Notes under the pieces: model-generated | What the model saw: only the letters and a program-made list of their open reading frames with translations | Told to the model about the DNA's origin: nothing | The model's database searches: none | NCBI GenBank assembly: GCA_913045135.1 | Contig: CAJWQD010000010.1 | Coordinates: 1-52,617 of the forward strand | From: an uncultured Flammeovirgaceae bacterium | GTDB lineage: Bacteria; Bacteroidota; Bacteroidia; Cytophagales; Cyclobacteriaceae | Reading direction: 5' to 3' | DNA length: 52,617 nucleotides | Part shown: positions 4,232-20,618 of the stretch, piece by piece | How positions within the stretch are numbered: the stretch's first letter is position 1 | How the letters are laid out: every line of letters begins with the position of its first letter | Made by a program: the position numbers and the translations under genes

Positions 4232-5275
4232 ATGAAAAAAAATACCGATTCTACTCTTACCCAAATTTCCAAGCATTTAAATCTTTCAATATCGACTGTA
4301 TCCCGCGCAATAAATGGTCAGTCCAAGAAATATCGAATCAGCGAAAAAACGACGAAACTTATAATTGAAGCTGCAAAAAAGTTTAAATATGAGCCTAATG
4401 AATTAGCTAGAAGTTTAAGGTTAAAAAAATCTAATACGATTGGTGTGATAGTACCTGATATAACTAATCCATTTTTTGCAGTAATAGTTAGGTGGATTGA
4501 AAATGCAGCACGCCTTAATGATAAAACAATTTTTATTTCCGATTCCAATAACGACACGGAATTTGAAAAAATAGCAATTAAAGCTTTTTCAAGCAGAAAA
4601 ATAGATGGATTAATTGTTGCACCTGTGGGTGATGAATCATTTCATCTATCGGAAACGAATCAATTAGACATTCCAATCGTAATTATTGATAGACATTTAG
4701 ACAAATTAAATTTACCATTTGTCGGATCTAATAATTATGAAGGATCAAAAGAAGCGACAAACTATTTAATCGGAAAAGGACATCAAAAAATAGCATTTAA
4801 TCAAGGACTTCAAAAATCAAAATTAAATTTAGATCGAGTAAGAGGTTATTGTGATGCATTGAAAGAAAATAGAATTACAATAAATCATAATTTAATAGTT
4901 GGCGAAAATTTTAATGAACAAAGCGGCTATGAAGCAGCTAAGTTTTTATTGAGCAAAAATACTTGTATTACTGCAATATTCACAGCAAGCAACCAGATAG
5001 CTCTTGGCACAATAAAAGCGATAAAAGAAAAAAAATTACATATTCCGAATGATATATCTCTTTTATCTTTTGATAATCAGTCATACTGGGATTATTTCTC
5101 TCCTCCAATAACAACTGTCGAGCAACAAACTAAAAAAATTGCAGATAAGGCTTATAATCTACTTTCTGAAATGATTAACCACAATAAAATTGTTGGAACT
5201 TCAAAAATTCAGCTATCCACAAAATTAATTATAAGAAAATCGGTTAAGGATAAGGTGAGAAAAGCTTGGACATAG
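4232..5275 (+). CDS. LacI-family transcriptional regulator of the ribose locus
   Basis: This cytoplasmic repressor has 347 residues. The N-terminal helix-turn-helix at residues about 9-30 (LTQISKHLNLSISTVSRAIN) and the hinge helix NELARSLR near 57-65 with the minor-groove leucine are those of LacI/GalR proteins. The rest is a periplasmic-binding-protein-like sensor domain beginning at NTIGVIVPDITNPFF, with SFDNQSYWDYFSPPITTVEQ near the end. Such domains bind sugars or purines; by context the ligand could be ribose or a derivative. The gene lies 145 bp upstream of the susCD-type operon on the same strand. A LacI-style palindrome at 5346-5365 lies between them, so it probably represses that operon. 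The length is typical. Confidence 0.92.
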   Translation: MKKNTDSTLTQISKHLNLSISTVSRAINGQSKKYRISEKTTKLIIEAAKKFKYEPNELARSLRLKKSNTIGVIVPDITNPFFAVIVRWIENAARLNDKTIFISDSNNDTEFEKIAIKAFSSRKIDGLIVAPVGDESFHLSETNQLDIPIVIIDRHLDKLNLPFVGSNNYEGSKEATNYLIGKGHQKIAFNQGLQKSKLNLDRVRGYCDALKENRITINHNLIVGENFNEQSGYEAAKFLLSKNTCITAIFTASNQIALGTIKAIKEKKLHIPNDISLLSFDNQSYWDYFSPPITTVEQQTKKIADKAYNLLSEMINHNKIVGTSKIQLSTKLIIRKSVKDKVRKAWT

Positions 5276-5345
5276 TTTTAAACGTTGGTAAAAGGTCTTA
5301 ATAATTTTTGATCTGACCTTTGGATATTTTAAAATATTAATTATT

Positions 5346-5365
5346 TTGCACAATCGTTTGTGCAA
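5346..5365. promoter_or_regulatory. Putative LacI-family operator
   Basis: TTGCACAATCGTTTGTGCAA is an inverted repeat in which nine of ten base pairs match, centred on CG. A palindrome of about 20 bp with a central CG is the hallmark of LacI-family operators, into which the hinge helix inserts its leucine. It lies between the regulator gene and the first lipoprotein gene of the operon, 56 bp before that start codon. I saw no second good copy in the window. Confidence 0.75.
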
Positions 5366-5420
5366 TCAATTACAATTTTTATAAAACCCTTTTGCTTTTT
5401 TATTAACTAAAGAAATAATT

Positions 5421-6398
5421 ATGAAAACTAATCAATATCTAAATTATGTAGGCGGCTTACTACTATCGTTATTACTTTTGGTACTGGCAGCATGCGGAGA
5501 TGATGACTCAAGTGGTGCTCCGGTTGTTATAAATCAACCCCCAGTAATCTCAGGATTAAGTGACATTACATTATCTCCGGGATTTGAAACTTATGAGTTG
5601 GATTTTGCCAACTACGTTTCAGACCAAGAAGGTGAAATAATTACTTACTCTATAGTTAACAGCGATGAAACGGTAATTACCTTAAATCTTGCAGGATCTT
5701 TACTTACAATTACTGAGGTAGGTAATCCAGGATCTTCAAGTATTACTATTACAGCCACAGATGGGCAGGATGATCATGAGGTTTCGGAAGACTTTACTGT
5801 TACCGTTGAAGCTATCAGCGGAGCCGCTGACTACACTGGTAACGCAGCTGTCATGTTTGACTTTAATGGCTTGACTGAAGGAAGTATTTTTGATAATTCA
5901 TTGCCAGGTTGGTTATTTGAGGGGAGTACGGCTGACGGTGAGTATAACGCTGCAGAAATTGGTTCTATTGTTGTTGAAAATGATCACCTCTCAATAATTC
6001 ACAATGTCGATAGCACTTACATTTGGTCTGAGATGGAGCTTGTAGATGGTAATCAGGATTTTACTGGTAAAAAATTTAGATTTGACTACAGATTTTACAC
6101 TGTTCCAAATCTTAACGACATGCATTGGGAGGATGAGACACCGGGCGTTGATATGCAAATCTATTACATTGATGCTGATTGGGGAGATGTAGGTGGTGGC
6201 CAATATAGATTCAGCGCTATGGATTTAGAATATAGTGCTGATTGGCAATCTGTTGAAATACCACTTTCGGAATTTGAAAGTCTATGGGAAAATCCTGTCG
6301 ATGCATCAGCAGTTGGCGTAATAGGCCTAGAAATTTGGGGAGGAACTGCTAGCGCGCCTATTTCCTTTAGGCTTGATAATTTTGGAATCGTAGATTAA
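5421..6398 (+). CDS. Surface glycan-binding lipoprotein of the SusCD locus
   Basis: The 325 residues start with a lipoprotein signal peptide (lipobox LAAC, Cys25) followed at once by GDDDSS. An acidic run right after the Cys is the known outer-membrane surface export signal in Bacteroidota. Residues about 38-130 look like one Ig/cadherin-like domain (NQPPVISGLSDITLSPG to the TVTVE strand). Residues about 145-325 look like a jelly-roll carbohydrate-binding domain: FDFNGLTEGSIFDNSLPGW at the start, and SFRLDNFGIVD at the end as in many CBM-like modules. No catalytic motif was seen. Its place just before susC, 37 bp apart, suggests an auxiliary substrate-binding protein, though SusE/F-type proteins normally follow susD. 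The ligand is unknown. Confidence 0.75.
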   Translation: MKTNQYLNYVGGLLLSLLLLVLAACGDDDSSGAPVVINQPPVISGLSDITLSPGFETYELDFANYVSDQEGEIITYSIVNSDETVITLNLAGSLLTITEVGNPGSSSITITATDGQDDHEVSEDFTVTVEAISGAADYTGNAAVMFDFNGLTEGSIFDNSLPGWLFEGSTADGEYNAAEIGSIVVENDHLSIIHNVDSTYIWSEMELVDGNQDFTGKKFRFDYRFYTVPNLNDMHWEDETPGVDMQIYYIDADWGDVGGGQYRFSAMDLEYSADWQSVEIPLSEFESLWENPVDASAVGVIGLEIWGGTASAPISFRLDNFGIVD

Positions 6399-6435
6399 CA
6401 AATTCTCAACCTAAACTGCAAAAAAGTATAACAAC

Positions 6436-9400
6436 ATGACAAAACACCTTAAGTTATTTATAGGTATTTTCCTTATTATTTCTTTCCAAGTTCATGCACA
6501 AATTACCATCAAAGGTAACATAGTAGATGATCAAAATGAATCTGTTATCGGTGCAACAATTATTGTTAAAGGAACAACAATTGGAACTGTTACAGATATT
6601 AGAGGTGATTATTCAATAAGCGTTCCGGAAAATTCCGAAACGCTTATTGTTAGTTTTATAGGATATAAATCAAAGGAAATACTTATTAGTAACAGAGCAA
6701 TCATCGATATAAAATTAGAAATCGATATAGCAGAATTGGAAAGTATTGTTGTTACGGGTTATGGTTCGCAAAGAAAGCAAGATATAACTGGTGCCGTTGC
6801 AATTGTAAATACAAATGAAATATCTAAAAGTCAATACACAAACGTGACCGACAGATTACAAGGTAGAGTACCTGGTGTATCGGTAAAAACAAATGGTGAG
6901 CCCGGTTCTATGGGTGATGTGACAATTCGCGGCGTATCTTTTTTTGGAGATAATAACCCATTATACGTAATTGATGGAATTCCAACGGAAGATAGTCCGA
7001 ACATTAATCCGGCAGACATAGAAACTATACAAGTACTTAAAGATGCTTCCTCCTCGGCTATTTATGGATCAAGAGCCGCCAATGGCGTTGTGGTTATTAC
7101 TACAAAAAAAGGTAGAATTGGAAAACCGACAATCTCATTTAATTCGAACATAGGTTTACAGCAAATTCCTAATAAAATGAATGTTGTAAATACTTCAGAA
7201 TTCGCCAGAATTCACAATGCGGCCTATGACAATGCAGGATATCCGAGACGGACCTGGTCAAATGATCTATCAAGGGGCATCGACACAGATTGGCAAGCTG
7301 AGATCTTCAATGAGGCCGCATTTCTTCAGGATTATAATTTATCAATATCTGGAGGAAATGACAAAAGTAAAGTTTATTTTAATCTCAATAATACAAAACA
7401 AGAAGGTACGATTGAAGGTACTATCTTTGAAAGATTAGGAGCTCGAATTAATTCAGAGTTTGATTTAACAAAGCGTATAAAAATTGGACAAAACCTCTCA
7501 GTAAGTACCACAAATCAAAGTGGTCAACAAATATTAAATGCACAAGGAGTATTGGGAGGATCAGGTAATGGAGTAATTAATACCGCGATAATGATGTTTC
7601 CAACCATTCCAGTTTACGATCCCACAAGGCTGAGTGGTTATGGGCATGGAACAATTGAGGATGCAGAAATTTACCTTTATAACCCAGTTGGAATTCGAGA
7701 GATGTATAGCAGCAAAGAAGATCATACTCGAATTCTTGGTAATATATTTGTTAATGTAAATCTCACCTCAGATTTAGAGTATAGATTCAATTTTGGAACT
7801 GATTCTGATTTTGGATTTAGCAAAAGTCATCAAAGAACAGGACAAATTACAACTGAATTAGTACACCTCTCTGGACTAAGTGAATATAATAGTAAAAGTA
7901 CAATGTTGCTTTTTGAAAATAGATTAACGTATAAAAAGAAATTTGGTAATCATGACTTTTCAGTCATGGCCTCACAAACAGAACAAGAATTTAAAATTCA
8001 TCAAAGTGGTATTTCTATTGTTGGAGGTTTTGCGAGTGCTAATCCATTTTTTCAAATTTCAGCAACAACAGCAGCACCCACAGATATTACAACTTCTGGT
8101 GATGAGCTTACATCAACGATAAGTTCATTATTAGGTCGTTTTACATATAATTACGATGGGAAGTACTTATTTACAGCTAATGTTCGGTCGGATGGCTCCT
8201 CTAAATTTCCTAAAAATAATAGATGGGGTACGTTCCCATCGATTTCACTAGGTTGGAATATTAGTAAGGAAAGTTTCTTCCAGTCATCTATAGTGAACGA
8301 TCTCAAGCTCAGAGTAGGTTATGGTGTAGTTGGAAATGCAAGTATTGATGATTATGCATATCAGTCATTAATTTTTTCCCGATCTATAGGTGGAAATAAT
8401 TACAATTTAGGATATGATGATCGAAGCATAATTGGTGCAACAAGAGCAGGAATTGTTAATAATGATCTAAAATGGGAAACATTAAAAGAAACTAATATTG
8501 GAATGGATCTTTCATTAATGGATGGAAGTATAGAAATAATTGGAGACATTTATTTTAGTGAATTAGAAGACTTGCTTGTTGACGCTCCAGTTCCTGGAAG
8601 TGCTGGCGAAGGTCAATCCAGCACGATTATTAATGCGGCCACAATGGACCGCTCTGGATGGGAATTTTCTTTTCGATATCGTAAATTAGATGGAAATCTT
8701 AAATTTGATATAACTGCCAACGTGTTCCAAAACAAAAATGAAGTGACGTATTTACCATTGGGTGATTTGTATGGATTACATTCGATAACAAGCGTTGGTC
8801 AGCCTATAGGTCAGATTTATGCACTCGATTATCTTGGTGTATACACTGATGAATCTGAATTAGGTGATAATACTGTAGTTGGTCAAACACCTGAATTAGG
8901 AGATGCCAAATATCGGGATATTAGCGATGACGGAGATATTAGTGAGGGGCAAGATAGAATGATCCTAGGTGATCCGAATCCTAAATTACAATACGGATTA
9001 AATTTTAGTGCGTATTGGAAAGATTTTGAATTTACGATCTTTTTTCAAGGAATGAATGGTGCAGATGCCTTTAATGCAATTAAATACAACATGAATACTT
9101 CCGCACAAACTAGCTATACTGGCGATTATGACCCCTTTATAGATGGTATAGGAACGGATCCCAGGCCTACAGCAGATTTTGGTAGCCCAAATAATATTGC
9201 AAGTGGCCTATTTGTTGAAGATGCCTCTTATCTTAGATTAAAAAATATTAGAATTGATTATCAAATACCATGGAGAAGAATAAATAATCTTGGTGTTTTC
9301 ATCGGTGGTCAGAATCTTTTAACATTTACTAAATATTCAGGGATGGATCCAGAATTTGATAGCAATATATTAGCTCCTGGAGTCGATTGGGGAGGATTTC

Positions 9401-9444
9401 CAAATATTAGAATATTTAATTCGGGTTTTAATATTACATTTTAG
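6436..9444 (+). CDS. SusC/RagA-type TonB-dependent outer-membrane transporter
   Basis: This is the outer-membrane importer of the locus, 1002 residues. A signal peptide (about 1-21, ending VHAQ) is followed by a carboxypeptidase-regulatory-like domain at about 22-95, from ITIKGNIVDDQ to FIGYKSKEI. Next come the TonB box region with IVVTGYGSQRKQDITGA and the SusC-type plug (LQGRVPGVSV, IRGVSFFGDNNPLYVIDGIP, LKDASSSAIYGSRAANG). A long 22-strand barrel ends in the aromatic SGFNITF. The length is typical of SusC. It works with the SusD lipoprotein encoded 12 bp downstream; the pair captures oligomers or small ligands and imports them using TonB-ExbBD energy. By context the cargo is a riboside or ribose-containing glycan. 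Confidence 0.95.
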   Translation: MTKHLKLFIGIFLIISFQVHAQITIKGNIVDDQNESVIGATIIVKGTTIGTVTDIRGDYSISVPENSETLIVSFIGYKSKEILISNRAIIDIKLEIDIAELESIVVTGYGSQRKQDITGAVAIVNTNEISKSQYTNVTDRLQGRVPGVSVKTNGEPGSMGDVTIRGVSFFGDNNPLYVIDGIPTEDSPNINPADIETIQVLKDASSSAIYGSRAANGVVVITTKKGRIGKPTISFNSNIGLQQIPNKMNVVNTSEFARIHNAAYDNAGYPRRTWSNDLSRGIDTDWQAEIFNEAAFLQDYNLSISGGNDKSKVYFNLNNTKQEGTIEGTIFERLGARINSEFDLTKRIKIGQNLSVSTTNQSGQQILNAQGVLGGSGNGVINTAIMMFPTIPVYDPTRLSGYGHGTIEDAEIYLYNPVGIREMYSSKEDHTRILGNIFVNVNLTSDLEYRFNFGTDSDFGFSKSHQRTGQITTELVHLSGLSEYNSKSTMLLFENRLTYKKKFGNHDFSVMASQTEQEFKIHQSGISIVGGFASANPFFQISATTAAPTDITTSGDELTSTISSLLGRFTYNYDGKYLFTANVRSDGSSKFPKNNRWGTFPSISLGWNISKESFFQSSIVNDLKLRVGYGVVGNASIDDYAYQSLIFSRSIGGNNYNLGYDDRSIIGATRAGIVNNDLKWETLKETNIGMDLSLMDGSIEIIGDIYFSELEDLLVDAPVPGSAGEGQSSTIINAATMDRSGWEFSFRYRKLDGNLKFDITANVFQNKNEVTYLPLGDLYGLHSITSVGQPIGQIYALDYLGVYTDESELGDNTVVGQTPELGDAKYRDISDDGDISEGQDRMILGDPNPKLQYGLNFSAYWKDFEFTIFFQGMNGADAFNAIKYNMNTSAQTSYTGDYDPFIDGIGTDPRPTADFGSPNNIASGLFVEDASYLRLKNIRIDYQIPWRRINNLGVFIGGQNLLTFTKYSGMDPEFDSNILAPGVDWGGFPNIRIFNSGFNITF

Positions 9445-9456
9445 CCATAAAGAAAT

Positions 9457-11010
9457 ATGAAAATTTTAAATTTTAAAATAAAAATGATATGCCTAATTAT
9501 CATTTTTTCATCTTGCGTAAATTTGGAACAAATAAATCCAAATCAGCCAACAGAGGATAGTTTTTGGAAAACAAGGGAAGACTTTTATTCAGGATTGATA
9601 GGAGCATATGATTATTTGCAAAGTGGCGAGATGTATGCTGGTCAAATTCAGCAAACTTTTAATTTGCTTTCTGATGAGGGTTTTACTGGTGAACTCGGAG
9701 AAACCCTAAATTTGGCAACATTTACATCAGATTTGGATAATGAATTCCACGAGAGCTTATGGTATAATTTCTATATTTTAATAGCCCGATCGTATGAAGT
9801 TATTGAAAGAGGAAATAACAGCACTTTAAATGGTATTGATGGTTTAATAGCTGAGGCAAAGTTTTTGGTAGCATTTTCTTATTATCATCTTATAAATGTT
9901 TACGGAGATGGTGTTGCCTATGTTGACAGAATTCAAGGTGCCAATGATAGGCCAAGAAAAGCAGAATCAGGTGAGATATGGGTTCTCATTGAAACATTAC
10001 TTGATGATGCCATTCCATTATTGCCCACATCTTATCCCTCATCAGAATTTGGGAGAGTAACAAGGGGAGCCGCACAATCATTACTCGCTAAGGCATATCT
10101 TCAGCAGCGAAATTATATTAGTGCAGAACAAATTTTAAAATCTATTGTCGAATCTGGACTATATGGACTTAATGAAGATTACGAGTCTAACTTTACCGAG
10201 GAACTCACTACCGGAAATAAGGAGGTTATTTTTCAAGTTAATTTTCTTGAAAATGGTCCCCAAGAGGAGTCTGACAATGCATGGTATTTTAGAATAAATA
10301 CACCAGGGCCATCAAATATTGGAATTTGGGCAGATCAGTTGGCATCAGAATTCGCAATTCGATCTTATTTGGTCGAGGCAGATAAAGATGGTAATCTTGA
10401 TCCAAGAATGAATGTAAGCCTTTTTACAGAATATACTGATCAAACACTCTATGGTCAGACATGGGCATGGTGGATTACAAATACTACAGAAATCGTTACG
10501 GGAGCAAGTTTTTATAAATTTAATGAGAATGATGCAGTCTATAATGAAATTAACAACGGTTCAGGTTATGTTCAATGGAAGAATGGAGGGCGAGATATGA
10601 TTCTGATTCGATATTCAGATATTCTTCTTTTGTTGGCAGAAGCTCTTAATGAAAATGGTAATACCTCAGAGGCTCATTCATATGTAAATATTGTAAGAAA
10701 TAGATCTAATATGAATAATTTGGAAATTACTGCTGGTCGCGAATTAAACCAAGAAGAATTTAGGCAACAAATTAAGCATGAGCGTTTAGTAGAACTTTGT
10801 GGAGAATATTTAAGATTTTTTGATTTAAAGAGATGGGGAGAATATGGGCCTCAAGTGGCAGCTGACTTTACAATTCCAGCTGTGAGCACTACAATCAAAA
10901 GAGACTCTATTTTTGAAAATTTTAGGGTTAATAAAGATGAGCTGTTTCCTATTCCATTAGATGAGTTAGACATCAATCCTAACCTTTTACCACAGAACCC
11001 CGGATGGTAA
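9457..11010 (+). CDS. SusD/RagB-type surface lipoprotein
   Basis: The lid of the SusC transporter has 517 residues. The signal peptide has lipobox FSSC (Cys20). The SusD N-terminal pattern VNLEQINPNQPTEDSFWKT is followed by TPR-like helices (LIAEAKFLVAFSYYHLINVYGD). The RagB/SusD C-terminal domain includes LIRYSDILLLLAEALNENG, AHSYVNIVRNRS, EYLRFFDLKRWG and the canonical end IPLDELDINPNLLPQNPGW. It lies on the outer surface and binds substrate jointly with SusC. The gene starts 12 bp after susC, clearly the same transcript. The ligand is not predictable from sequence, and the surrounding enzymes point to ribosides. Confidence 0.95.
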   Translation: MKILNFKIKMICLIIIFSSCVNLEQINPNQPTEDSFWKTREDFYSGLIGAYDYLQSGEMYAGQIQQTFNLLSDEGFTGELGETLNLATFTSDLDNEFHESLWYNFYILIARSYEVIERGNNSTLNGIDGLIAEAKFLVAFSYYHLINVYGDGVAYVDRIQGANDRPRKAESGEIWVLIETLLDDAIPLLPTSYPSSEFGRVTRGAAQSLLAKAYLQQRNYISAEQILKSIVESGLYGLNEDYESNFTEELTTGNKEVIFQVNFLENGPQEESDNAWYFRINTPGPSNIGIWADQLASEFAIRSYLVEADKDGNLDPRMNVSLFTEYTDQTLYGQTWAWWITNTTEIVTGASFYKFNENDAVYNEINNGSGYVQWKNGGRDMILIRYSDILLLLAEALNENGNTSEAHSYVNIVRNRSNMNNLEITAGRELNQEEFRQQIKHERLVELCGEYLRFFDLKRWGEYGPQVAADFTIPAVSTTIKRDSIFENFRVNKDELFPIPLDELDINPNLLPQNPGW

Positions 11011-11018
11011 ATAAATTA

Positions 11019-11053
11019 TATTTCAATTTCATTTTCTCTGTTTTATTGAAATA
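11019..11053 (+). other. Stem-loop after susD
   Basis: TATTTCAAT (11019-11027) and ATTGAAATA (11045-11053) form a 9-bp stem with a 17-nt loop, starting 9 nt after the susD stop. There is no T run, so it is not a standard terminator. In operons of this kind such hairpins can stabilise the upstream susCD mRNA. The remaining sequence to 11186 is AT-rich with no gene. Confidence 0.35.
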
Positions 11054-11170
11054 TTAGATATGACAACTATTGACTCATCCTTTAAAATTATTTTATTAAA
11101 AAGCAATCAAATTATAAAAATCTTTATTAATGATTTTTTTTTATAGTATCAATAATAACTACACTAAATG

Positions 11171-11188
11171 ATTTAATTCGAATTAAAT
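11171..11188. repeat. 18-bp perfect palindrome at a start codon
   Basis: ATTTAATTCGAATTAAAT is a perfect inverted repeat centred on CG that covers the first two bases of the ATG of the following glycohydrolase gene. It could be a protein-binding site, or an RNA hairpin hiding the start codon. Its sequence is unlike the 5346 operator. The AT-rich background makes a chance origin possible. Confidence 0.4.
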
Positions 11189-12767
11189 GAAAAATTATAC
11201 CTTTTTTCTTTTATTTCTGGGGTTTATATCTTGTGAAAACTCTAACCAAGAATATATAACTATTGCTGAAGATAAACTTCGAAATAAAATTGCCGGAGGA
11301 TGGGCAGGTAAAATGATTGGGGTGTCATATGGTGCACCCACGGAGTTTGTTTATAATGGGAGAATTAATGAAGATCCAATAGATTGGTCTCCTGAGACAC
11401 TTAGAAGATCAATTTCAGAGGATGATTTATATGTTCAAATGAGCTTTATGATGACCATGGATAAATATGGAATTGATGCACCCGTTGAGAAATTTGGAGA
11501 AGCATTTGCTAACTCAGGTTATATGTTATGGCATGCTAACCGAGGAGCTAGAATGAATATATGGAACGGAATTATGCCACCGGATTCAGGACATCCTGAT
11601 TATAACCTACATTCAGATGATATCGATTTCCAAATTGAGGCCGATTATATAGGTCTGATGAATCCTGGTATGCCTCAATCTTCTAATAAAATTTGTGATA
11701 AAATTGGTCACATTATGAATTATGGTGATGGAGTTTATGGAGGAATGTTTGTAAGCGCATTATATGCAGCAGCATATTTTGAAAATGATGTTAAAAAAGT
11801 ACTTTTTACAGCTATGAAATCATTACCCATTGAGAGTAGTTATCATGCCATTTTGCGTGATGTCGTTGATGGATATGAACGAAATCCTAAAGATTGGAAA
11901 AAGACTTGGAAAAGAATATATGATAAATGGGGAGAAACTGACATTTGCTGTGCACTATCGGAATATAATATTGATGCGAAGCTGAATGGCGCCTTTATTG
12001 CCATTGGTTTGCTGTATGGAGAGGGAGATTTTGAAAGGAGTATGGAAATTAGTGCCAGATGCGGAGCTGATTCCGATTGTAATCCGTCAAATTGTGCAGG
12101 GGTAATGGGTATTATACTTGGTTATGATAAAATACCCAGCGAATGGACAAAATACATAGATGAAATAGCTGACTCACTGTTTATTTATACTGATTATTCA
12201 TTTAATAAGGCTGTTGATCGCACGCTTTATTATGCAAAAGAATTAGTTTTTAAGAACGGAGGAAAAATGGAAGATGATTTTTTATTTATAAAAAAACAGG
12301 AACCTGTTCCGGCGAAACTAGAAGTCTCTTTTCCAAATATATTTCCCAAAGAAAAGGTTACTATCACGGATACGAATTACTGGGAATGGAAAGGTGATTG
12401 GGAAAAAGTAAGTCAAACCAATCAATGGGATGGTGAAGAGACTCAAATGCAAGCTGAAACTGCTGGATCTGAATTAACGTTAAAATTTAATGGAACGGGA
12501 GCAGTAATCATGGGGAGATTTGATATTGATTGTGGTCAAGTTGATATTTTCATTGATAGTGAATTTCACCGATCCAGAGATAATTATTATAAAAAGATGA
12601 ACTGGGGCGCAGGAGATGGATGGTTAAATGGAGCACATTTGGCACATATTATGAACTTAGAAAAAGGTGATCATAAGCTAAGTATCAAAATTAAAAATGA
12701 AAAATCAGAGAAATCTGAGGGTAATAAACTTAAAGTAGCCAGAGCTATTATTTACGATGAAATTTAA
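11187..12767 (+). CDS. Lipoprotein ADP-ribosylglycohydrolase with C-terminal beta-sandwich domain
   Basis: The 526 residues have a short lipoprotein signal (lipobox FISC, Cys16) and then the ADP-ribosylglycohydrolase (ARH/DraG) fold at about 25-355. The opening KLRNKIAGGWAGKMIGVSYG is typical. The two metal-binding blocks appear as SEDDLYVQ (Glu78-Asp80) and CGADSDCNPSNCAGVMG (Asp295, Asp297), variants of the family's DDT and GxDTDT motifs. Family enzymes hydrolyse ribosyl bonds at the anomeric carbon using two Mg ions. Residues about 370-526 look like an extra beta-sandwich, perhaps carbohydrate-binding. As a lipoprotein it should act at the cell surface or in the periplasm, unlike the cytoplasmic family members. 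The next gene begins 8 bp downstream. The true substrate is unknown. Confidence 0.85.
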   Translation: MKNYTFFLLFLGFISCENSNQEYITIAEDKLRNKIAGGWAGKMIGVSYGAPTEFVYNGRINEDPIDWSPETLRRSISEDDLYVQMSFMMTMDKYGIDAPVEKFGEAFANSGYMLWHANRGARMNIWNGIMPPDSGHPDYNLHSDDIDFQIEADYIGLMNPGMPQSSNKICDKIGHIMNYGDGVYGGMFVSALYAAAYFENDVKKVLFTAMKSLPIESSYHAILRDVVDGYERNPKDWKKTWKRIYDKWGETDICCALSEYNIDAKLNGAFIAIGLLYGEGDFERSMEISARCGADSDCNPSNCAGVMGIILGYDKIPSEWTKYIDEIADSLFIYTDYSFNKAVDRTLYYAKELVFKNGGKMEDDFLFIKKQEPVPAKLEVSFPNIFPKEKVTITDTNYWEWKGDWEKVSQTNQWDGEETQMQAETAGSELTLKFNGTGAVIMGRFDIDCGQVDIFIDSEFHRSRDNYYKKMNWGAGDGWLNGAHLAHIMNLEKGDHKLSIKIKNEKSEKSEGNKLKVARAIIYDEI

Positions 12768-12775
12768 ATGATATT

Positions 12776-14185
12776 ATGATTAGATTTATCCTCAGTTCAT
12801 TAATTATTTGTAGCTTAATAATTAATGGTTGCTCTGTAAAAAAAGATCCTTCTCATAGGGAAGTGGTACATATTTTCAATGAAGCTTGGAATACGGGAAA
12901 ATATGAGTTACTTGAAACAGCTGTTCATCAAGATTATTTAAAGCGTGAAGGAAATCTGGAGATAAATGGAATAAAATCTCTTGTGGAATACATCAAAAAT
13001 TACAGAGAATCTTATTTTAACATAAAAATCAATTACTTAGAGGAATTATATAGCGCAGAAAAGGCTGCAGTCAATTTTGAAATTGAAGGAACCCCAAAGA
13101 AAAGTGGTAGGAAATTTAAAGCAGAGGGAATTGTTATTTTTCAATTCAAAAATGGAAAAATTATTGGCGATCATAGTGTGTTTGATCAAGTTTCTGCATT
13201 AAGTCAGCAAGGATATAAACTTGAGCCGCAAGAATTAAATAAGCAAAGAATACTATTTGATACAGATGCGAATAATGAGCTTGACGATCAACATGCGTTG
13301 GCATACCTATTATTTAGTGGTAATGATTTTGATGTTGAAGGAATTACTGTTAACAAGACAAAAAATGGTGGTGATATTGATTCACATTATAATGAAGCTA
13401 AAAGAATTCTTCAGCTATGTGGCATAGATCAGAAAATAAATATATATAAAGGTGCCAGTGGTAGTTTTGATGAAATTAAAAAAGACATAAAAAATCCTAA
13501 TTTCGACGGTGCTGATGCAGTAAATTTTATTATTTCAAAAGCAAAGGAATCAAATAATAGAAAACTTATTTTATTACCTGTAGGTAAGTTAACTAATATA
13601 GCATTGGCTTTATTAAGAGAGCCGTCCATTATGGATAATATTAGAATTGTTTGGCTTGGCTCAAATTATCCTGAATCAGGAGAGTATAATCAGGAAGATG
13701 ACCCAACTGCCCTTCAATATATCCTAGATAGTAAGGTGAATTTTGAAATTGTTCTGGTTAGATACGACAGACCTTCAGGGACCGATGCTGTTAAAGCTTA
13801 CCTAAAAGATATAAGAACTATAATGCCTGGTTTGGGTCCTAAAATAACAAAACCTGTAATTGGCAGGGATGGTATTGAATACTTAAATTTCGGTGATTAC
13901 TCAGTTAGTCTATTTGAAAAAATTGAAGATTTTGATGATGGATATGATCAGGGATACAACCAAGCTCGAGCACTTTTTGATATGGCCGCAGTCGCAATAA
14001 TAAAAAATTCGTCATGGGCAATCGCCACTGAAATTGCAAGTCCCTCTTTAAAACAAAGCAAATGGATAGAAAGGCCTCAAAATGATAGAAAAATCATAAT
14101 TTGGCATGATTTTAATAAAGATGAAATTATGAAAAATTTTTACTATACAATGAAAAATCATGTTCTAGTTTCAAATTCTAATTAA
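12776..14185 (+). CDS. NTF2/SnoaL-like domain fused to nucleoside hydrolase, lipoprotein
   Basis: The 469 residues begin with a lipoprotein signal (lipobox INGC, Cys19). Residues about 27-145 resemble a SnoaL/NTF2-like domain: FNEAWNTGKYELLETAV, then the strand FKAEGIVIFQFKNGKIIGD. Residues about 157-460 are a nucleoside hydrolase of the IUNH type. Its calcium/ribose site is written DTDANNELDD (Asp162, Asp164, Asp170, Asp171), longer than the usual DTDxGxDD. LLPVGKLTNIALALL and QARALFDMAAVA follow as expected. Nucleoside hydrolases split N-ribosides into base and ribose. Its export as a lipoprotein fits a role in freeing ribose outside the cytoplasm. It sits 8 bp after one ADP-ribosylglycohydrolase gene and 29 bp before another, in one operon. 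The fusion is unusual. Confidence 0.85.
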   Translation: MIRFILSSLIICSLIINGCSVKKDPSHREVVHIFNEAWNTGKYELLETAVHQDYLKREGNLEINGIKSLVEYIKNYRESYFNIKINYLEELYSAEKAAVNFEIEGTPKKSGRKFKAEGIVIFQFKNGKIIGDHSVFDQVSALSQQGYKLEPQELNKQRILFDTDANNELDDQHALAYLLFSGNDFDVEGITVNKTKNGGDIDSHYNEAKRILQLCGIDQKINIYKGASGSFDEIKKDIKNPNFDGADAVNFIISKAKESNNRKLILLPVGKLTNIALALLREPSIMDNIRIVWLGSNYPESGEYNQEDDPTALQYILDSKVNFEIVLVRYDRPSGTDAVKAYLKDIRTIMPGLGPKITKPVIGRDGIEYLNFGDYSVSLFEKIEDFDDGYDQGYNQARALFDMAAVAIIKNSSWAIATEIASPSLKQSKWIERPQNDRKIIIWHDFNKDEIMKNFYYTMKNHVLVSNSN

Positions 14186-14214
14186 TAGATTTAGAAGAAT
14201 ACTAAAATTCTATC

Positions 14215-17200
14215 ATGAAAAAAATTATAGGAATACTAGCTCTAATTTATTTTGTCAATATTTCTTATTTGAGTGGACAAACTATCAATAAAGAAGAGTA
14301 TATGGACAAAATGAAAGGATTTTGGCTTGGCAGTTGTATAGCAAATTGGACAGGTCTAAAAACCGAAGGCCAGAGAAATGGAAAACCATATTATACTGAT
14401 GATGATTGGAATACAAATCAAGGTAATGAAGATTATGGCACTTACATTGATTTCGTTTTAAATAAAGAAATATGGGGTGCAGATGATGATACAGATATAG
14501 AATACATCTATCAGCACGCCATGGAAACTTACAATACCTATCGGCTAACAGGTGATCAAATAAGACTACAGTGGCTAGACCATATTTCGGCTGAGGAGGA
14601 AAACTTTCTTTGGGTATCGAATGAATCTGCTTTTAATCTCATGCGAGAAGAAAAGATAATTCCTCCAGCCACATCTTTACCCTATTTAAATGATAACTGG
14701 GAAATGATAGATGCCCAGCTGACTACAGAAATATTTGGATTACTAGCCCCCTTGAGACCAAATCTTGCCTTAGATCTATCATATCTTCCAATCAGAACTA
14801 CTGCTTATTCTCACTCTATGTACGCTGCGCAATTTTATGTAATTATGCACTCACTTTCAATTGGAATAGATAAAGATTTATCTAGAAAAAATCAAATATT
14901 GCAATTAGCCGACTCCGCAAGAAGTTTTATTCCCGAGACATCTTACATCGCTAAAATGTATGATTGGGTTCGAAACGAGTATATAAACTCTGAGGATAAA
15001 AATGATTGGGAAATAGTTCGAGATACATTTCATGACCATTATATTGAAGGGGGTACAGATGGTTACAAATATACAGAGTTTTATGATTGTGGAAGCAATT
15101 TTGGTTTTAGTATAATCAGTCTTCTTTTTGGTGAAGGTGATATTAAAAGGACAATTCAAATTGGAACATTATCAGGACAAGACTCAGATAACCCAACTGC
15201 GACTTGGGGTGGCCTTTTAGGTTTTATATACGGTTTTGATTCTATACAAGACCATTTTAATAAATATGACTTTTCTGAGTTCTATAATATCAATCGAACC
15301 CGAGTGAATTTTGGTGATACATTAGACACCTTCTCAGGTATGGCGCGTCGTTTTATATCATTAGTTAATAAAGTCATTATTGAAGAAATTAGAGGCAAGG
15401 TTACCGATGAATTTTGGATAATTGATAAACCATTAAATAAAAATTATTATTTATCATCAACCAATGGTATGGATGATGGCGATGGCACTATAGATAGGCC
15501 TTGGAGTTCATTAAATAAAATTGATAAGTATGTGTTTAATCCAGGTGATTCAATACTTTTCCAACGTGGATCTCATTGGAATGGAGCTATAAAAATTACG
15601 TCCTCAGGTTCTTTCAATTATCCGATTGTATTTAGCTCTTATGGTATTGGTGATAAGCCCTCAATTAGTAACTCTAATCCAAACATTAATAGCGGAAACG
15701 CTTTTCAAATAATGGCAAATCATATTACAATTAATGATTTATATATTTTTAATTGTGGCCTAAGTGGTCCTAGATCCGTTGCAGGAATATCTTCTTTTAA
15801 TCGAGAAAATCATCATATTACAATACAGAATTGTGAATTTAGTCAATGCCGTGTAGGAGTCCGGCTTTATGCTAATAACATCCAAATAATAAATAATTAT
15901 TTTCATAGCCCAGGAGGAGGTATTAATGAATGGTGGGGTCCAATGGCTATAGTGGTATCAGGTTTTGATGGTGAAATTGGTTATAACACAATTGAAGGAT
16001 TTTTAGCTCCAAATAATTATGGTTTTGATGGGGGAGCAATTGAGATTGATGATGAGGGTATTCATACAAACTGGAAAATACATCACAATATTAGCCGCGG
16101 CAATCAAGGATTTCTTGAGACTTACGATAACTCAGAATGTGATAATTGTACTTGGGGTAATCTTAAAATATATTACAATTACAGTGATGATTACCAATGG
16201 TTTTTGGATGGGCCAATAGGAGATGATCCGTTTATTGAAAACAATACAATCCTTCGCACTCTTCCCGCAAACACGGATTTCAATTGGGGTATAAGTCTTC
16301 ATCATGCTATTCCTAAAGGATCAATTCGTAATAATATTTTCGTTTTAGCGAATGATGTTAAAGCGTTCAAATGGGAAAATCCAGGAAATTCTACTCGTAG
16401 TAATATCTATTTCTCTATAGATAGCAGTTCCAATAATCCAAAAGGATATCCGCTTGGCGAAAATGAGATAATTGCAGACCCAATGTTTATCAGTTTTAAT
16501 GACCGCAATTTGAATTTACTAGAGAGAAGTCCAGCAGTTGATAGAGGTGAAAATACTCTCTATGAAAAAGATCTCAATGATAATAAGATCCCCTTTGGGA
16601 ATGGTACTGACATAGGAGCTTTTGAATCTTCATTTTATGCGATAGTCCCGCTGTATGACATACAAATAAACAATTTAAATGTAGACTTAGATGCAACCGG
16701 TAGTTTAGCTGAGAGAAACCAGAATATCATTACATACGAGTGGGATTTTGGAGATGGAGAAAAAAACTTTGGTAGTGATGTTTCTCATTCTTATTCCGAC
16801 GCGGGAACATATAAAATAACATTAAAAGTCACTTCAAGCTCAGGCATAGTATCAGAAATATCTAAAATTATTACGGTTCAAAAATTACCAGATCCCCTAT
16901 TCCATACATGGCACTCCTATGATGTTCAAATTCAATCAGGCAATCCTCAAGCATACGTGAGTGACGGAACAACGGAGGTACCCCTGCAGTTTTATATTTC
17001 TTCAAATGACGATGGAATAATTAAAGGGGATTTACTGGAAAATTATAATCCTAAGGAACATCCAGATAATTTTAATCGATTAAAAAATTTCTGGGGGGAA
17101 GATTACCCTTATGTGGGCAAAAGCATTGTGCCACAAGGAGTTGACATAGCAGAAAATATAGGCCGGTTTCCTGGAGTCTTAGATTTACAAATGCATCCAA

Positions 17201-17763
17201 CTGACTCCAAAAAACTGTTGATTTGTGCTTTTGAAGTTCCCTATTCTGGAAACTACACCATCTCAAATTTTGGCATAAGGCGTGTTCATAACGATAACTC
17301 AGACTCAGAGCTAAAACTATTTACAGAACAAAAAGGGATGGTCGCTTCTATTAATGGAAGAAGTCGTTCTTGGAATTATGACGCAAAAATATTTGAGTTG
17401 AAAAATATGACGAAAGGTGATTTTATATATTTTGCTGTGGGTAATGTGGACGGATTTTCAAACGATGCGGTTGAAATTTCATGGAGTATTAAATTAAATG
17501 ATCTGACAACCGGGTTTATGGAATTAGATGAAAAGGACGATTTTAAAATCATCCCAAATCCTTCAAATGGCCTATTTAAGCTATTTTTTGGGGAAAATAT
17601 GGTTAGAAATGATTTAGAGATGAATGTTTCAAACATTGTCGGAAAGAAAATTGAAAATTTTAAGTTAACAAGTAATAATTTAACTTTCGATTTGTCACAT
17701 TATCCTCCCGGCATCTATATAGTCCGTTGTGGTAAGATCTTTAAACGACTAATAATTGGCTAA
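14215..17763 (+). CDS. T9SS-secreted ADP-ribosylglycohydrolase with beta-helix and PKD domains
   Basis: A multidomain secreted protein of 1182 residues. The signal peptide (about 1-22, ending LSGQ) is followed by an ADP-ribosylglycohydrolase domain at about 24-400. Its two metal blocks read ADDDTDIEY (Asp90-Asp94) and GQDSDNPTATWGG (Asp323, Asp325). Residues about 418-810 look like a right-handed parallel beta-helix, opening YYLSSTNG with repeated ITI-N-turns such as ENHHITIQNCEFSQC, as in polysaccharide lyases and glycosidases. A PKD domain lies at about 815-890 (YEWDFGDGEKNFG, SYSDAGTYKITLKV). After an unrecognised segment, residues about 1103-1182 form a T9SS type A sorting domain (IIPNPSNGLFKLFF, YPPGIYIVRCGK). 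It would be exported by the Por/Gld machinery. It shares little detail with the 11187 enzyme. Confidence 0.85.
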   Translation: MKKIIGILALIYFVNISYLSGQTINKEEYMDKMKGFWLGSCIANWTGLKTEGQRNGKPYYTDDDWNTNQGNEDYGTYIDFVLNKEIWGADDDTDIEYIYQHAMETYNTYRLTGDQIRLQWLDHISAEEENFLWVSNESAFNLMREEKIIPPATSLPYLNDNWEMIDAQLTTEIFGLLAPLRPNLALDLSYLPIRTTAYSHSMYAAQFYVIMHSLSIGIDKDLSRKNQILQLADSARSFIPETSYIAKMYDWVRNEYINSEDKNDWEIVRDTFHDHYIEGGTDGYKYTEFYDCGSNFGFSIISLLFGEGDIKRTIQIGTLSGQDSDNPTATWGGLLGFIYGFDSIQDHFNKYDFSEFYNINRTRVNFGDTLDTFSGMARRFISLVNKVIIEEIRGKVTDEFWIIDKPLNKNYYLSSTNGMDDGDGTIDRPWSSLNKIDKYVFNPGDSILFQRGSHWNGAIKITSSGSFNYPIVFSSYGIGDKPSISNSNPNINSGNAFQIMANHITINDLYIFNCGLSGPRSVAGISSFNRENHHITIQNCEFSQCRVGVRLYANNIQIINNYFHSPGGGINEWWGPMAIVVSGFDGEIGYNTIEGFLAPNNYGFDGGAIEIDDEGIHTNWKIHHNISRGNQGFLETYDNSECDNCTWGNLKIYYNYSDDYQWFLDGPIGDDPFIENNTILRTLPANTDFNWGISLHHAIPKGSIRNNIFVLANDVKAFKWENPGNSTRSNIYFSIDSSSNNPKGYPLGENEIIADPMFISFNDRNLNLLERSPAVDRGENTLYEKDLNDNKIPFGNGTDIGAFESSFYAIVPLYDIQINNLNVDLDATGSLAERNQNIITYEWDFGDGEKNFGSDVSHSYSDAGTYKITLKVTSSSGIVSEISKIITVQKLPDPLFHTWHSYDVQIQSGNPQAYVSDGTTEVPLQFYISSNDDGIIKGDLLENYNPKEHPDNFNRLKNFWGEDYPYVGKSIVPQGVDIAENIGRFPGVLDLQMHPTDSKKLLICAFEVPYSGNYTISNFGIRRVHNDNSDSELKLFTEQKGMVASINGRSRSWNYDAKIFELKNMTKGDFIYFAVGNVDGFSNDAVEISWSIKLNDLTTGFMELDEKDDFKIIPNPSNGLFKLFFGENMVRNDLEMNVSNIVGKKIENFKLTSNNLTFDLSHYPPGIYIVRCGKIFKRLIIG

Positions 17764-17833
17764 TAGAAATTTGTAAGAAATTTAAGTAACTACTGTGAAT
17801 TCTAATTAAACTAATTTTTTAAATACAAGATTT

Positions 17834-18832
17834 ATGTTTATTGTAAAATCGTACCCTTTAGCCGTCTTATTATGTATAATTACAATGCTATGTTGGGGCT
17901 CTTGGGCAAATACTCAAAAAATGGCATCAAAAAAATGGGAATTTCCCCTATTCTATTGGGACTACACCTTTGGCATTATTTTTCTTTCCCTCGTAATGGG
18001 ACTATCATTAGGTAGTTTTGGAGAGAATGGACAAGCATTTATACCTAATATTTTTCAAGCCAGCCTAAATGCCATTTTATTGGCTTTGATAGGTGGAATT
18101 GTTTTTAATATTGCTAATTTACTTCTTGTAGCTGCTATCGACATAGCTGGAATGGCGACTGCTTTTCCTATTGGAATAGGAATTGCTCTTGTCCTTGGTG
18201 TTATTCTTAATTTTATAGCTGTACCAATTGGAGATCCAATTTTACTTTTTATAGGAGTTGGTTTTGTTACATCTGCGATTGTTGTTGATGCCTTAATTTA
18301 TAAAAAAATTTCAAGCGGAAAATCAACTAGAAAGGGTATATTGTTGTCCTTAACTGCAGGAATTTTGATGGGATTTTTTTATCGTTTCGTTGCCGCCTCC
18401 ATGTCAACCGATTTTGTAAATCCCGATAAAGGTTTGTTAACTCCTTATTCAGCAGTTTTTATCTTCTCAATAGGAATATTCCTGTCAAATTTTTTATTTA
18501 ATACATTTTTCATGTATCGACCTGTGACTGGAGACAAAGTATCATACAATGATTATTTTTCAAGAGGCAATCCTAAATTACATATTATCGGAATATTCGG
18601 TGGAATGATATGGGCTCTTGGTATGTTATTAAATATGATAGCTGCTGGCAAAGCTGGTTTTGCAATTTCATATGGTTTGGGTCAAGGGGCAACAATGGTA
18701 GCCGCGGTTTGGGGTGTATTTATTTGGAAGGAATTTAAACATGCTCCCAAGGGGACTAATAGTTTAATATGGCTGATGTTTCTTTTATTTATCCTGGGAC
18801 TTGGTCTTATCATAATGGCTAAAAACGTATAA
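17834..18832 (+). CDS. GRP/RbsU-like sugar permease, probably ribose
   Basis: An inner-membrane protein of 332 residues with about ten hydrophobic helices. The opening MLCWGSWANTQKMASKKWEFPLFYWD and the later LLVAAIDIAGMATAFPIGIGIALVLG and SYGLGQGATMVAAVWGVFIWKEF are typical of the glucose/ribose porter (GRP, DMT superfamily) transporters found beside ribokinase genes in Bacteroidota. It likely carries free ribose from the periplasm into the cytoplasm by proton symport (inference from family and neighbour). The ribokinase gene begins 2 bp after its stop, so translation is probably coupled. The upstream gene ends 70 bp away on the same strand. Confidence 0.87.
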   Translation: MFIVKSYPLAVLLCIITMLCWGSWANTQKMASKKWEFPLFYWDYTFGIIFLSLVMGLSLGSFGENGQAFIPNIFQASLNAILLALIGGIVFNIANLLLVAAIDIAGMATAFPIGIGIALVLGVILNFIAVPIGDPILLFIGVGFVTSAIVVDALIYKKISSGKSTRKGILLSLTAGILMGFFYRFVAASMSTDFVNPDKGLLTPYSAVFIFSIGIFLSNFLFNTFFMYRPVTGDKVSYNDYFSRGNPKLHIIGIFGGMIWALGMLLNMIAAGKAGFAISYGLGQGATMVAAVWGVFIWKEFKHAPKGTNSLIWLMFLLFILGLGLIIMAKNV

Positions 18833-18834
18833 AT

Positions 18835-19752
18835 ATGGGAAAGATAGTTGTAGTCGGAAGTAGCAATACAGATCTTGTAGTTGATTCAAAAAAAATACCA
18901 TCGCCAGGCGAAACTGTCCTTGGAGGAGATTTTAACATGATTTCAGGTGGCAAAGGTGCTAATCAGGCAGTTGCCGCATCAAGAGCAGGAAGTGACGTTA
19001 CCTTTATTTGTAAAGTTGGTAACGATTATTTTGGAAATAGAGCTATTCAAGAATATAAAAAAGAGAATATTAATTTAAATCATATTTTCATTGATAAAGT
19101 ACATCCCTCTGGTGTAGCAGTAATTATAGTTGATGAAATATCAGGTGAAAATTCAATAGTTGTAGCGCCGGGATCAAATAATTATTTATCTGTTAAAGAT
19201 ATTATGCTAGTTGAAGAAAAAATAATTCGAGCGGATATTGTTCTAATTCAGTTAGAAATTCCAATATCAACAGTGGAGTGTGTCTTGAGATTGGCAAAAA
19301 AAAATAACGTTAAAACTATTTTAAATCCAGCACCAGCTCAAATGCTTTCCGATGAATTACTAAGTATGGTTGATATTATTACACCCAATGAGTCTGAAAC
19401 AGAAAATCTAATAGGAATTTATCCTGACAATGAAGAAAAACTCGAGGCAGCTGGAAAAGAATTATTAAAAAAAGTAAGGAATGCAATTTTAATAACACTT
19501 GGTGAAAAAGGTGTTTATTTAAACTCAAAAAATAAAAGTTCTCAATTAATTCCAGCCAAGAACGTGAAAGCAATAGATACAACTGCCGCAGGAGATGTAT
19601 TCAATGGATATTTAGCATCTTCCTTATCTGATAATAAAAAGTTAGAAGAAGCGATAAACATAGCCATTGAAGCGGCTGCTATTTCAGTAACAAAACGAGG
19701 AGCTCAGCCTTCTATTCCCGTAATAAATGAGTTAATTAATTTTAATCAATAA
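18835..19752 (+). CDS. rbsK: Ribokinase
   Basis: This cytoplasmic PfkB-family kinase of 305 residues converts ribose and ATP to ribose 5-phosphate, feeding the pentose phosphate pathway and nucleotide synthesis. Motif 1 is GGKGANQAVAASRAG near residues 39-53. Motif 2, with the catalytic Asp and anion hole, is DTTAAGDVFNGYLA near 247-260; this DTxAAGD form also occurs in the E. coli enzyme. NPAPAQ and TPNESE are typical of ribokinase rather than fructokinase. The 2-bp spacing from the permease gene shows the two act together. The ribokinase identity is the strongest single pointer to ribose as the end product of the locus. Confidence 0.94.
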   Translation: MGKIVVVGSSNTDLVVDSKKIPSPGETVLGGDFNMISGGKGANQAVAASRAGSDVTFICKVGNDYFGNRAIQEYKKENINLNHIFIDKVHPSGVAVIIVDEISGENSIVVAPGSNNYLSVKDIMLVEEKIIRADIVLIQLEIPISTVECVLRLAKKNNVKTILNPAPAQMLSDELLSMVDIITPNESETENLIGIYPDNEEKLEAAGKELLKKVRNAILITLGEKGVYLNSKNKSSQLIPAKNVKAIDTTAAGDVFNGYLASSLSDNKKLEEAINIAIEAAAISVTKRGAQPSIPVINELINFNQ

Positions 19753-19904
19753 ATTATTTTTCGAGATCACGTTTTAGAATTATTTTTTATCAGATATTGA
19801 ATTTTAACCATAATTACATGTGACCAGAGTAGTTAACTTATAAAGTTTAATTGGAGAAAAATGTCCCATAAATAGTCATCAAACTAACTTATCTTCGAAA
19901 TTCC

Positions 19905-20618
19905 ATGTATAGAAAAATTCTTATTCAATTGCTTATTCTAATTATAATAACTAATTCTAGATATGCACTAAGCCAAACTAATTTAGAAGTTATTTACCCT
20001 TCCAAAAATACTATTATAGATTATCATGATCGATGGACGAAAAATCATTATAAAAAAAGGATAAAAAAATTTAAAAAAAATCCTATAAATCCTGGAGATG
20101 TTGTTTTCATTGGTAATAGCATTACTGAAGGAGGTAAAGATTGGGGAGGTAAATTGAACATTGAGAATGTAAAGAATAGAGGTATTTCTGGAGATGTCAC
20201 TGATGGAGTTCTTTTAAGACTTGGTGAATTGATTAAGTATGAGCCCAAGTCAATATTTATAATGATTGGCGTAAATGACCTCTTCAATCTTTACTATCGT
20301 AAAGAAATCCCCTCACCCGACTATGTAATTAAGAATTTACTTAAAATTACGACTCTGCTCCACGAAAAATTACCCAATACAAAGCTTTATCTTCAAACTC
20401 TCTTACCAACTGCCAGAGATTTCATAAATCAAAGTATAGATGTTGTAAACGCTTCAATAAAAGTACATCAATCAGATGAAACTTATACCTTAATTGATCT
20501 TAACCCACATTTTACTGCTGATGATGGATTGATTAATACATCTTTGACATATGATGGTACCCATCTAAATAGTCAAGGTTACCTGCTATGGTCAGAACTA
20601 ATAATGAAATACTTATAA
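19905..20618 (+). CDS. Secreted SGNH/GDSL-family esterase
   Basis: The 237 residues start with a signal peptide (about 1-24, ending ALSQ). The SGNH blocks are clear: FIGNSITEGG with the nucleophile Ser (block I), NRGISGDVTDGVLLRL (block II Gly), MIGVNDLF (block III Asn) and YDGTHLNSQGY (block V Asp and His). Similar proteins in Bacteroidota act as sialate or sugar O-acetylesterases or platelet-activating-factor-acetylhydrolase-like enzymes. Export to the periplasm or beyond fits removal of ester groups from the imported ligand. It lies 152 bp after rbsK on the same strand and may be the last gene of the operon or have its own promoter; TATCTTCG near 19892 is only an imperfect -7 box. Confidence 0.85.
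   Translation: MYRKILIQLLILIIITNSRYALSQTNLEVIYPSKNTIIDYHDRWTKNHYKKRIKKFKKNPINPGDVVFIGNSITEGGKDWGGKLNIENVKNRGISGDVTDGVLLRLGELIKYEPKSIFIMIGVNDLFNLYYRKEIPSPDYVIKNLLKITTLLHEKLPNTKLYLQTLLPTARDFINQSIDVVNASIKVHQSDETYTLIDLNPHFTADDGLINTSLTYDGTHLNSQGYLLWSELIMKYL

Follow-up and report, generated by a model that had tools for sequence, protein, structure and literature searches.

Ten genes at positions 4232-20618 of the DNA analysed here, all on the + strand, are best read as an elaborated ribose-utilization locus controlled by its own LacI repressor, in which the two proteins that we call ARG1 (product of 11187-12767) and ARG2 (product of 14215-17763) would act as ribosidases. We hold this overall account, built from sequence comparisons, to be moderately probable. 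The window, a stretch of 52,617 nucleotides from an uncultured Flammeovirgaceae bacterium, is contig C10 of a 2.12-Mb genome that is 82% complete. The genes were taken from a list of open reading frames (ORFs) with domains assigned by Pfam or NCBIfam, and these calls agree with an earlier note on the same DNA, which had described the ten-gene same-strand set. An identical order of the ten genes was found in two further genomes from this genus, L021 and L022 (the latter treated as one contig with L035, whose length and identities are the same), with protein identities between 54% (C-terminal part of ARG2) and 97%. Since the order recurs in these two genomes, a gene string arising by chance or by mis-annotation is ruled out.

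A profile scan for ARG1 in bacterial and archaeal genomes gave at least 565 confirmed stretches, the best 80 of which were analysed. A ribokinase or the same permease as in the window was found within 4 kb of ARG1 in 27 of these 80 loci and both were found in 18, ribokinases being counted only at 45% identity or more (weaker ones, for example in L064, were excluded). Counted by locus and gene there are 45 occurrences, 23 of ribokinase and 22 of permease, all on the strand of ARG1; beyond 4 kb in the flanks ribokinase was observed in two loci and the permease in two. A nucleoside hydrolase, whose scanned representative belongs to PF01156, also occurs within 4 kb in 15 of the 27 ribose-linked loci. 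In a tree of 94 ARG1 rows, where the window's row and six others were labelled by hand, the ribose-linked label falls on 34 rows, plus two with SusC, in divergent branches spanning Bacteroidota, Acidobacteriota, Verrucomicrobiota, Hydrogenedentota and Gemmatimonadota.

The converse sample started from the permease, which is present in 10 of 296 genomes of the phylum, the window's own included. Among ten other permease loci (from nine genomes), a ribokinase adjoins in seven (one of them only 38% identical), an ARG gene occurs in three, a nucleoside hydrolase was recognized by profile in four (truncated in one case by the end of a contig) and SusC in two. The gene orders observed include RbsK-GRP-SusC-SusD-ARG1 (L130), RbsK-ARG1-GRP (L131), NH-GRP-RbsK-ARG2 (L128) and a LacI gene divergent from RbsK-GRP-NH (L125), where RbsK is ribokinase, GRP the permease and NH nucleoside hydrolase. 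On these ARG1 and permease neighbourhood counts a ribose pathway is the best reading of the locus, and they support the ribose scavenging that had been proposed earlier. One cluster, L047:2881-15667, holds an array of three ARG1-type genes with a GH127 arabinofuranosidase-like gene, the permease, a ribokinase and two nucleoside hydrolases.

Judged from sequence and modelled structure, ARG1 and ARG2 are remote relatives of known ADP-ribosylhydrolases. The AlphaFold model of ARG1 has a mean predicted local distance difference test (pLDDT) score of 92, and its nearest solved folds in a Foldseek search against the PDB are DraG (E 1e-7), MJ1187 and ARH3. The N-domain of ARG2 is nearest in fold to ARH3 (E 6e-6), with an ARH-domain model of only fair confidence. 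By phmmer no PDB match was found for ARG1 at E 0.01 or for the ARH domain of ARG2, and a PHROGs search of both proteins gave no family. They share with the ARH/DraG family (PF03747; ARH1, ARH3, DraG and MJ1187) the all-alpha fold and the Glu/Asp-Asp/Asp-x-Asp residues, whereas they differ from it in having signal peptides, extra domains and ID-x-Q-(I/L) instead of GNGxxMR. The Glu, Asp-Asp and Asp-x-Asp acids are all invariant in both proteins, in alignments of 51, 8 and 14 rows. In ARH1 and ARH3, PMC6309922 describes these acids as forming a two-metal centre that holds the distal ribose, with the binuclear metal motif E...[S/T]DDT...D[S/T]D[S/T]; the variants in the window are EDDL and DSDC for ARG1 and DDDT and DSDN for ARG2.

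The GNGxxMR motif, searched with an expression that tolerates GCG and similar, was found in 13 of 13 ordinary Cytophagales members of the family versus none of 94 ARG1 and none of 8 ARG2 rows. The ID-x-Q-(I/L) segment stands at or beside the same place in all eight ARG2 rows and in 93 of 94 ARG1 rows (L093 being the exception), a count that is partly built in because the collecting scan used an ID-x-Q pattern. The count was therefore repeated on rows from a whole-protein search, free of motif bias, where GNGxxMR occurs in 0/8 ARG1 and 0/23 ARG2 rows (0/31) and ID-x-Q in 8/8 and 21/23, two ARG2 rows being exceptions. For the motif-count sample of 28 loci (L135-L162), five were dropped by hand and five had no ORF passing the filter; five of the 18 retained resembled ARG1/ARG2 and were excluded from the ordinary set, and in these GNGxxMR was found in 0/5 and the ID-x-Q expression in 4/5. 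According to PMC6309922, the adenosine in LchARH3 sits between Phe129 and Tyr135, contacting Gly133-Tyr135, and the pyrophosphate is held by Ser134, His168 and the main chain of Gly105, Val106 and Gly138. From the residue numbers we infer that LchARH3 residues 136-138 correspond to the GNG of GNGxxMR. The simplest reading is that ARG1 and ARG2 would keep the ribose site and drop ADP recognition. The claim of the earlier note that ADP-ribose-bond hydrolysis is exported is not supported, both proteins being remote relatives in which the metal and ribose acids are kept and the GNGxxMR segment is absent.

Several observations weigh against the ribosidase account. No ribokinase or permease was found within 4 kb in 53 of the 80 ARG1 loci, some of them on short contigs and two of them, L034 and L035, of the window's own kind, and ordinary glycan hydrolases surround some ARG1 copies (L057, L064). 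Other residues stand in place of the Thr/Ser partners of the ARH metal motif in ARG1 and, for some of them, in ARG2. The majority of the ARG1 rows were collected by a scan with ID-x-Q among its two patterns, the motif expressions were composed after the rows had been viewed, and the register of the lost motif comes from an alignment of remote relatives with hhalign probabilities of 47 and 10. Furthermore, PMC6309922 reports that ARH1 binds adenosine through a different part of the protein than ARH3, so that loss of GNGxxMR would still be compatible with ADP binding. Two more points concern ARG2: neither ribokinase nor permease was found near single-domain ARG2 kin in any of 17 fetched neighbourhoods, and no ribose neighbours were found in five further loci of ARG2 kin (L023-L027, one from the same genus).

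The different adenosine route of ARH1 also favours the alternative that ARG1 and ARG2 do hydrolyse ADP-ribosyl bonds, harvesting ADP-ribose or poly-ADP-ribose from outside the cell, from which an unlinked pyrophosphatase and phosphatase would yield ribose. This alternative draws as well on the Pfam family match above cut-off, the ARH fold and the metal acids, and on a NUDIX gene that abuts an ARG1-type gene on a Verrucomicrobia contig (L091:9345-9887), which would fit an ADP-ribose route at that locus. However, the 80 ARG1 loci hold no other strict Nudix motif and the ORFs of the window none, although divergent Nudix enzymes and phosphatases would escape such a search; GNGxxMR is present in 0/102 rows and in 0/31 rows fetched without use of a motif. 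Release of free ribose is favoured because the ribose permease and ribokinase fit it, whereas a true ADP-ribosyl hydrolase would yield ADP-ribose. We regard the alternative as distinctly improbable.

Assignment of ARG2 as a ribosidase is less secure than that of ARG1. Kin of its domain were found in 19 of 395 genomes of the phylum, its own included, and the 0/17 neighbourhoods rule out ARG2 as a generally ribose-linked family. One of 23 loci of single-domain ARG2 kin is ribose-linked, L128 being the lone exception. At L128:11634-13932 the ARG2-type gene is followed by an SMP-30/gluconolactonase-like gene in an operon of nucleoside hydrolase, permease and ribokinase. ARG2 might instead be a glycan-active enzyme unrelated to ribose and an incidental recruit here, which we consider unlikely. 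The presence of ribose neighbours in only 0/17 and 0/5 loci of its kin speaks for such a recruit, as do the settings of L198, where the SusCD locus around an ARG2 relative also contains GH2, GH9 and a xyloglucan-binding protein, and of L182, where one adjoins GH3, GH5 and GH17-like genes; ARG2, on the other hand, has the same position in three genomes of the genus, and its relative in L128 stands beside NH-GRP-RbsK. Three ribose-linked loci (L036, L088 and L112) carry a further ARH-family gene besides ARG1. These genes gave 97-141 bits with the ARG2 profile compared to at most 85 for true ARG1 rows, and they were not used as support for ARG2 because their BLAST distances to ARG1 and ARG2 are about equal (24-30% to both).

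A further alternative takes a ribose-containing polysaccharide, or some other ribofuranosyl polymer, as the target of the locus, with ARG1 and ARG2 acting on the polymer and nucleoside cleavage being secondary. The C-terminal sandwich of ARG1, a carbohydrate-binding-like domain, resembles modules of BT_2959, of a mannan esterase and a xylan-binding module in Foldseek (the last two matches were placed on this part by alignment length), and ARG2 has a beta-helix-like stretch and a PKD domain. An esterase is present in the locus, and kin of ARG1 and ARG2 occur in SusCD loci with GH3, GH5, alpha-galactosidase, GH2 and GH9 (L064, L198). Sus-like polysaccharide utilization loci have in common with the window locus the SusC/SusD pair, a lipoprotein, exported enzymes and cargo of the type IX secretion system (T9SS). 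The window locus differs in having ribokinase and nucleoside hydrolase and, by a Pfam scan of its proteins, no classical glycoside hydrolase family, and SusC-free cassettes of ribokinase, ARG1, nucleoside hydrolase and permease recur among ARG1 kin; we consider a polymer target unlikely. For the middle of ARG2, a GH136 lacto-N-biosidase was considered and rejected: the match is limited to residues 410-489, judged to be a common beta-helix start, and the model is unusable from 414 onward (pLDDT below 50 for residues 414-820), so that no GH136 claim is made.

In the ribose-utilization account that we prefer, the first lipoprotein and the SusC/SusD pair would capture ribosides, and ARG1, ARG2 and the nucleoside hydrolase would cleave ribofuranosyl bonds outside the cytoplasm to give free ribose, with the SGNH esterase stripping acyl groups. 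The permease would bring ribose into the cytoplasm, where ribokinase would convert it to ribose 5-phosphate, and ribose or a ribose-phosphate would relieve LacI at 5346-5365. ARG1 and ARG2 would be two-metal ribosidases recognising the terminal ribose, not the ADP half. More tentatively, and with the balance of our judgement against it, they may form a class of ribofuranosidases not described before, exported, dependent on two metals, descended from the ARH fold and acting where nucleoside hydrolases cannot. Such a class would no longer recognise ADP and would have acquired carbohydrate-binding-like or beta-helix-like domains; its targets could be alpha-anomeric or O-linked ribosides or ribose polymers, and the ARG enzymes and nucleoside hydrolase would complement each other. 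If the ribosidase assignment is true, the ADP_ribosyl_GH set of Pfam, at least 565 stretches of which were confirmed in our scan, would include exported ribosidases, a misleading family label would be corrected and a catalytic class would be added to ribose and nucleoside scavenging. It would also provide a concrete operator and enzyme set for probing which ribosides these bacteria feed on.

The 145-bp gap ahead of the first lipoprotein gene contains a palindrome, TTGCACAATCGTTTGTGCAA, at 5346-5365, which is probably the operator of the local LacI regulator. Three genomes (the window's own, L021 and L022/L035) share its 18-bp core (5347-5364), whose sole exact match in the window's genome lies here. 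Eight sites of that genome are within two mismatches of the core compared to three for a reversed control pattern, and the chance expectation for matches with up to three mismatches in the window is 0.49. L112 has one site with a single mismatch to the core. Outside the window, at G000:C16:624-641 (L199), another palindrome differs from the proposed operator by a single mismatch, with no ribose genes in the 5-kb stretch examined there.

Two exported ADP_ribosyl_GH architectures, one of them using T9SS, had also been described in the earlier note, and as anatomy both were confirmed. The T9SS tail of ARG2 (PF18962) is above cut-off, and in the genome, checked for sorting tails and SprA, we found SprA and 15 such tails above cut-off, that of ARG2 included. 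An outward location is therefore predicted for ARG2, whereas ARG1 and the nucleoside hydrolase appear to be lipoproteins by their signal sequences and could be periplasmic. The first lipoprotein, previously called a surface binding lipoprotein, is likewise predicted to face outward from its lipobox and its CGDDDS start, which we take to be an outward-location signal; its binding role is presumptive because the sole match is an immunoglobulin (Ig) model below its cut-off. The exported nucleoside hydrolase was correctly recognized, with its SnoaL domain overlooked. Among the proteins searched, this SnoaL fusion (12776-14185) was found only in the genus and in L034.

The ribose-utilization (rus) system of Bacteroides thetaiotaomicron has two ribokinases, whereas the window locus has one, together with a LacI-type regulator and an operator-like site. 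Glowacki et al. (2020) reportedly described diversified rus variants, some of which probably carry ADP-ribosylglycohydrolases. The window locus resembles these Bacteroides systems and is an elaborated variant of them: ribokinase, the SusC/SusD pair, a permease and an exported nucleoside hydrolase (lipoprotein signal read from sequence) were all found, and two ARH-fold enzymes (one T9SS-exported), the SnoaL fusion of the nucleoside hydrolase and an SGNH esterase are added. In B. thetaiotaomicron two papers list ribokinase, SusC, SusD, a DUF4969 protein, nucleoside hydrolase and permease for BT2803-2809, with rus most active in ribose medium (PMC10434189, PMC12596196). PMC10434189 mentions an ADP-ribosylglycohydrolase as part of a hemin locus in Prevotella intermedia. 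Apart from that paper, our literature search on ADP-ribosylglycohydrolase, with subscription journals thinly covered, found nothing, and is therefore no proof of novelty. The ribosidase reading of ARH-fold enzymes, the T9SS/beta-helix-like architecture, the SnoaL-fused nucleoside hydrolase and the operator may be new.

Table 1. Features annotated in the ten-gene locus, with positions in the window.
Feature	Position	Strand	Evidence
LacI-family regulator	4232..5275	+	Best named model RbsR NF047341, 242.7 bits, below cut-off 382
Palindrome TTGCACAATCGTTTGTGCAA, probable LacI operator	5346..5365	.	18-bp core 5347-5364 conserved
Lipoprotein with Ig-like N-terminus, putative surface binding protein	5421..6398	+	Big_9 below cut-off; lipobox then CGDDDS
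SusC-type TonB-dependent importer	6436..9444	+	TIGR04056, 825 bits
SusD-type lipoprotein	9457..11010	+	PF07980, 137 bits
ARG1 lipoprotein: ARH/DraG fold and C-terminal carbohydrate-binding-like beta-sandwich; proposed ribosidase	11187..12767	+	ADP_ribosyl_GH, 109.6 bits, cut-off 26.2
Lipoprotein, SnoaL fused to nucleoside hydrolase	12776..14185	+	PF07366, 52 bits; PF01156, 83 bits
ARG2: ARH-fold domain, beta-helix-like stretch, PKD, T9SS sorting tail	14215..17763	+	ADP_ribosyl_GH, 74.6 bits
GRP/ureide-permease type inner-membrane permease, proposed ribose importer	17834..18832	+	PF07168
Ribokinase	18835..19752	+	TIGR02152, 359 bits, cut-off 300
Exported SGNH/GDSL esterase	19905..20618	+	PF13472, 75 bits

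The genes flanking the locus look like housekeeping genes when judged by eye (GAPDH-, YebC- and succinyl-CoA-ligase-like), and besides those of ARG1 and ARG2 no ADP_ribosyl_GH domain was found in this incomplete genome. A window-type ARG2 is present in 3 of 10 genomes of the genus, its own included and some of them incomplete, and the locus is therefore probably accessory within the genus. The part from the lipoprotein to the hydrolase was also observed on a 7.5-kb contig (L034) with both ends cut, and in L083 an SGNH gene likewise adjoins ribokinase and ARG1.

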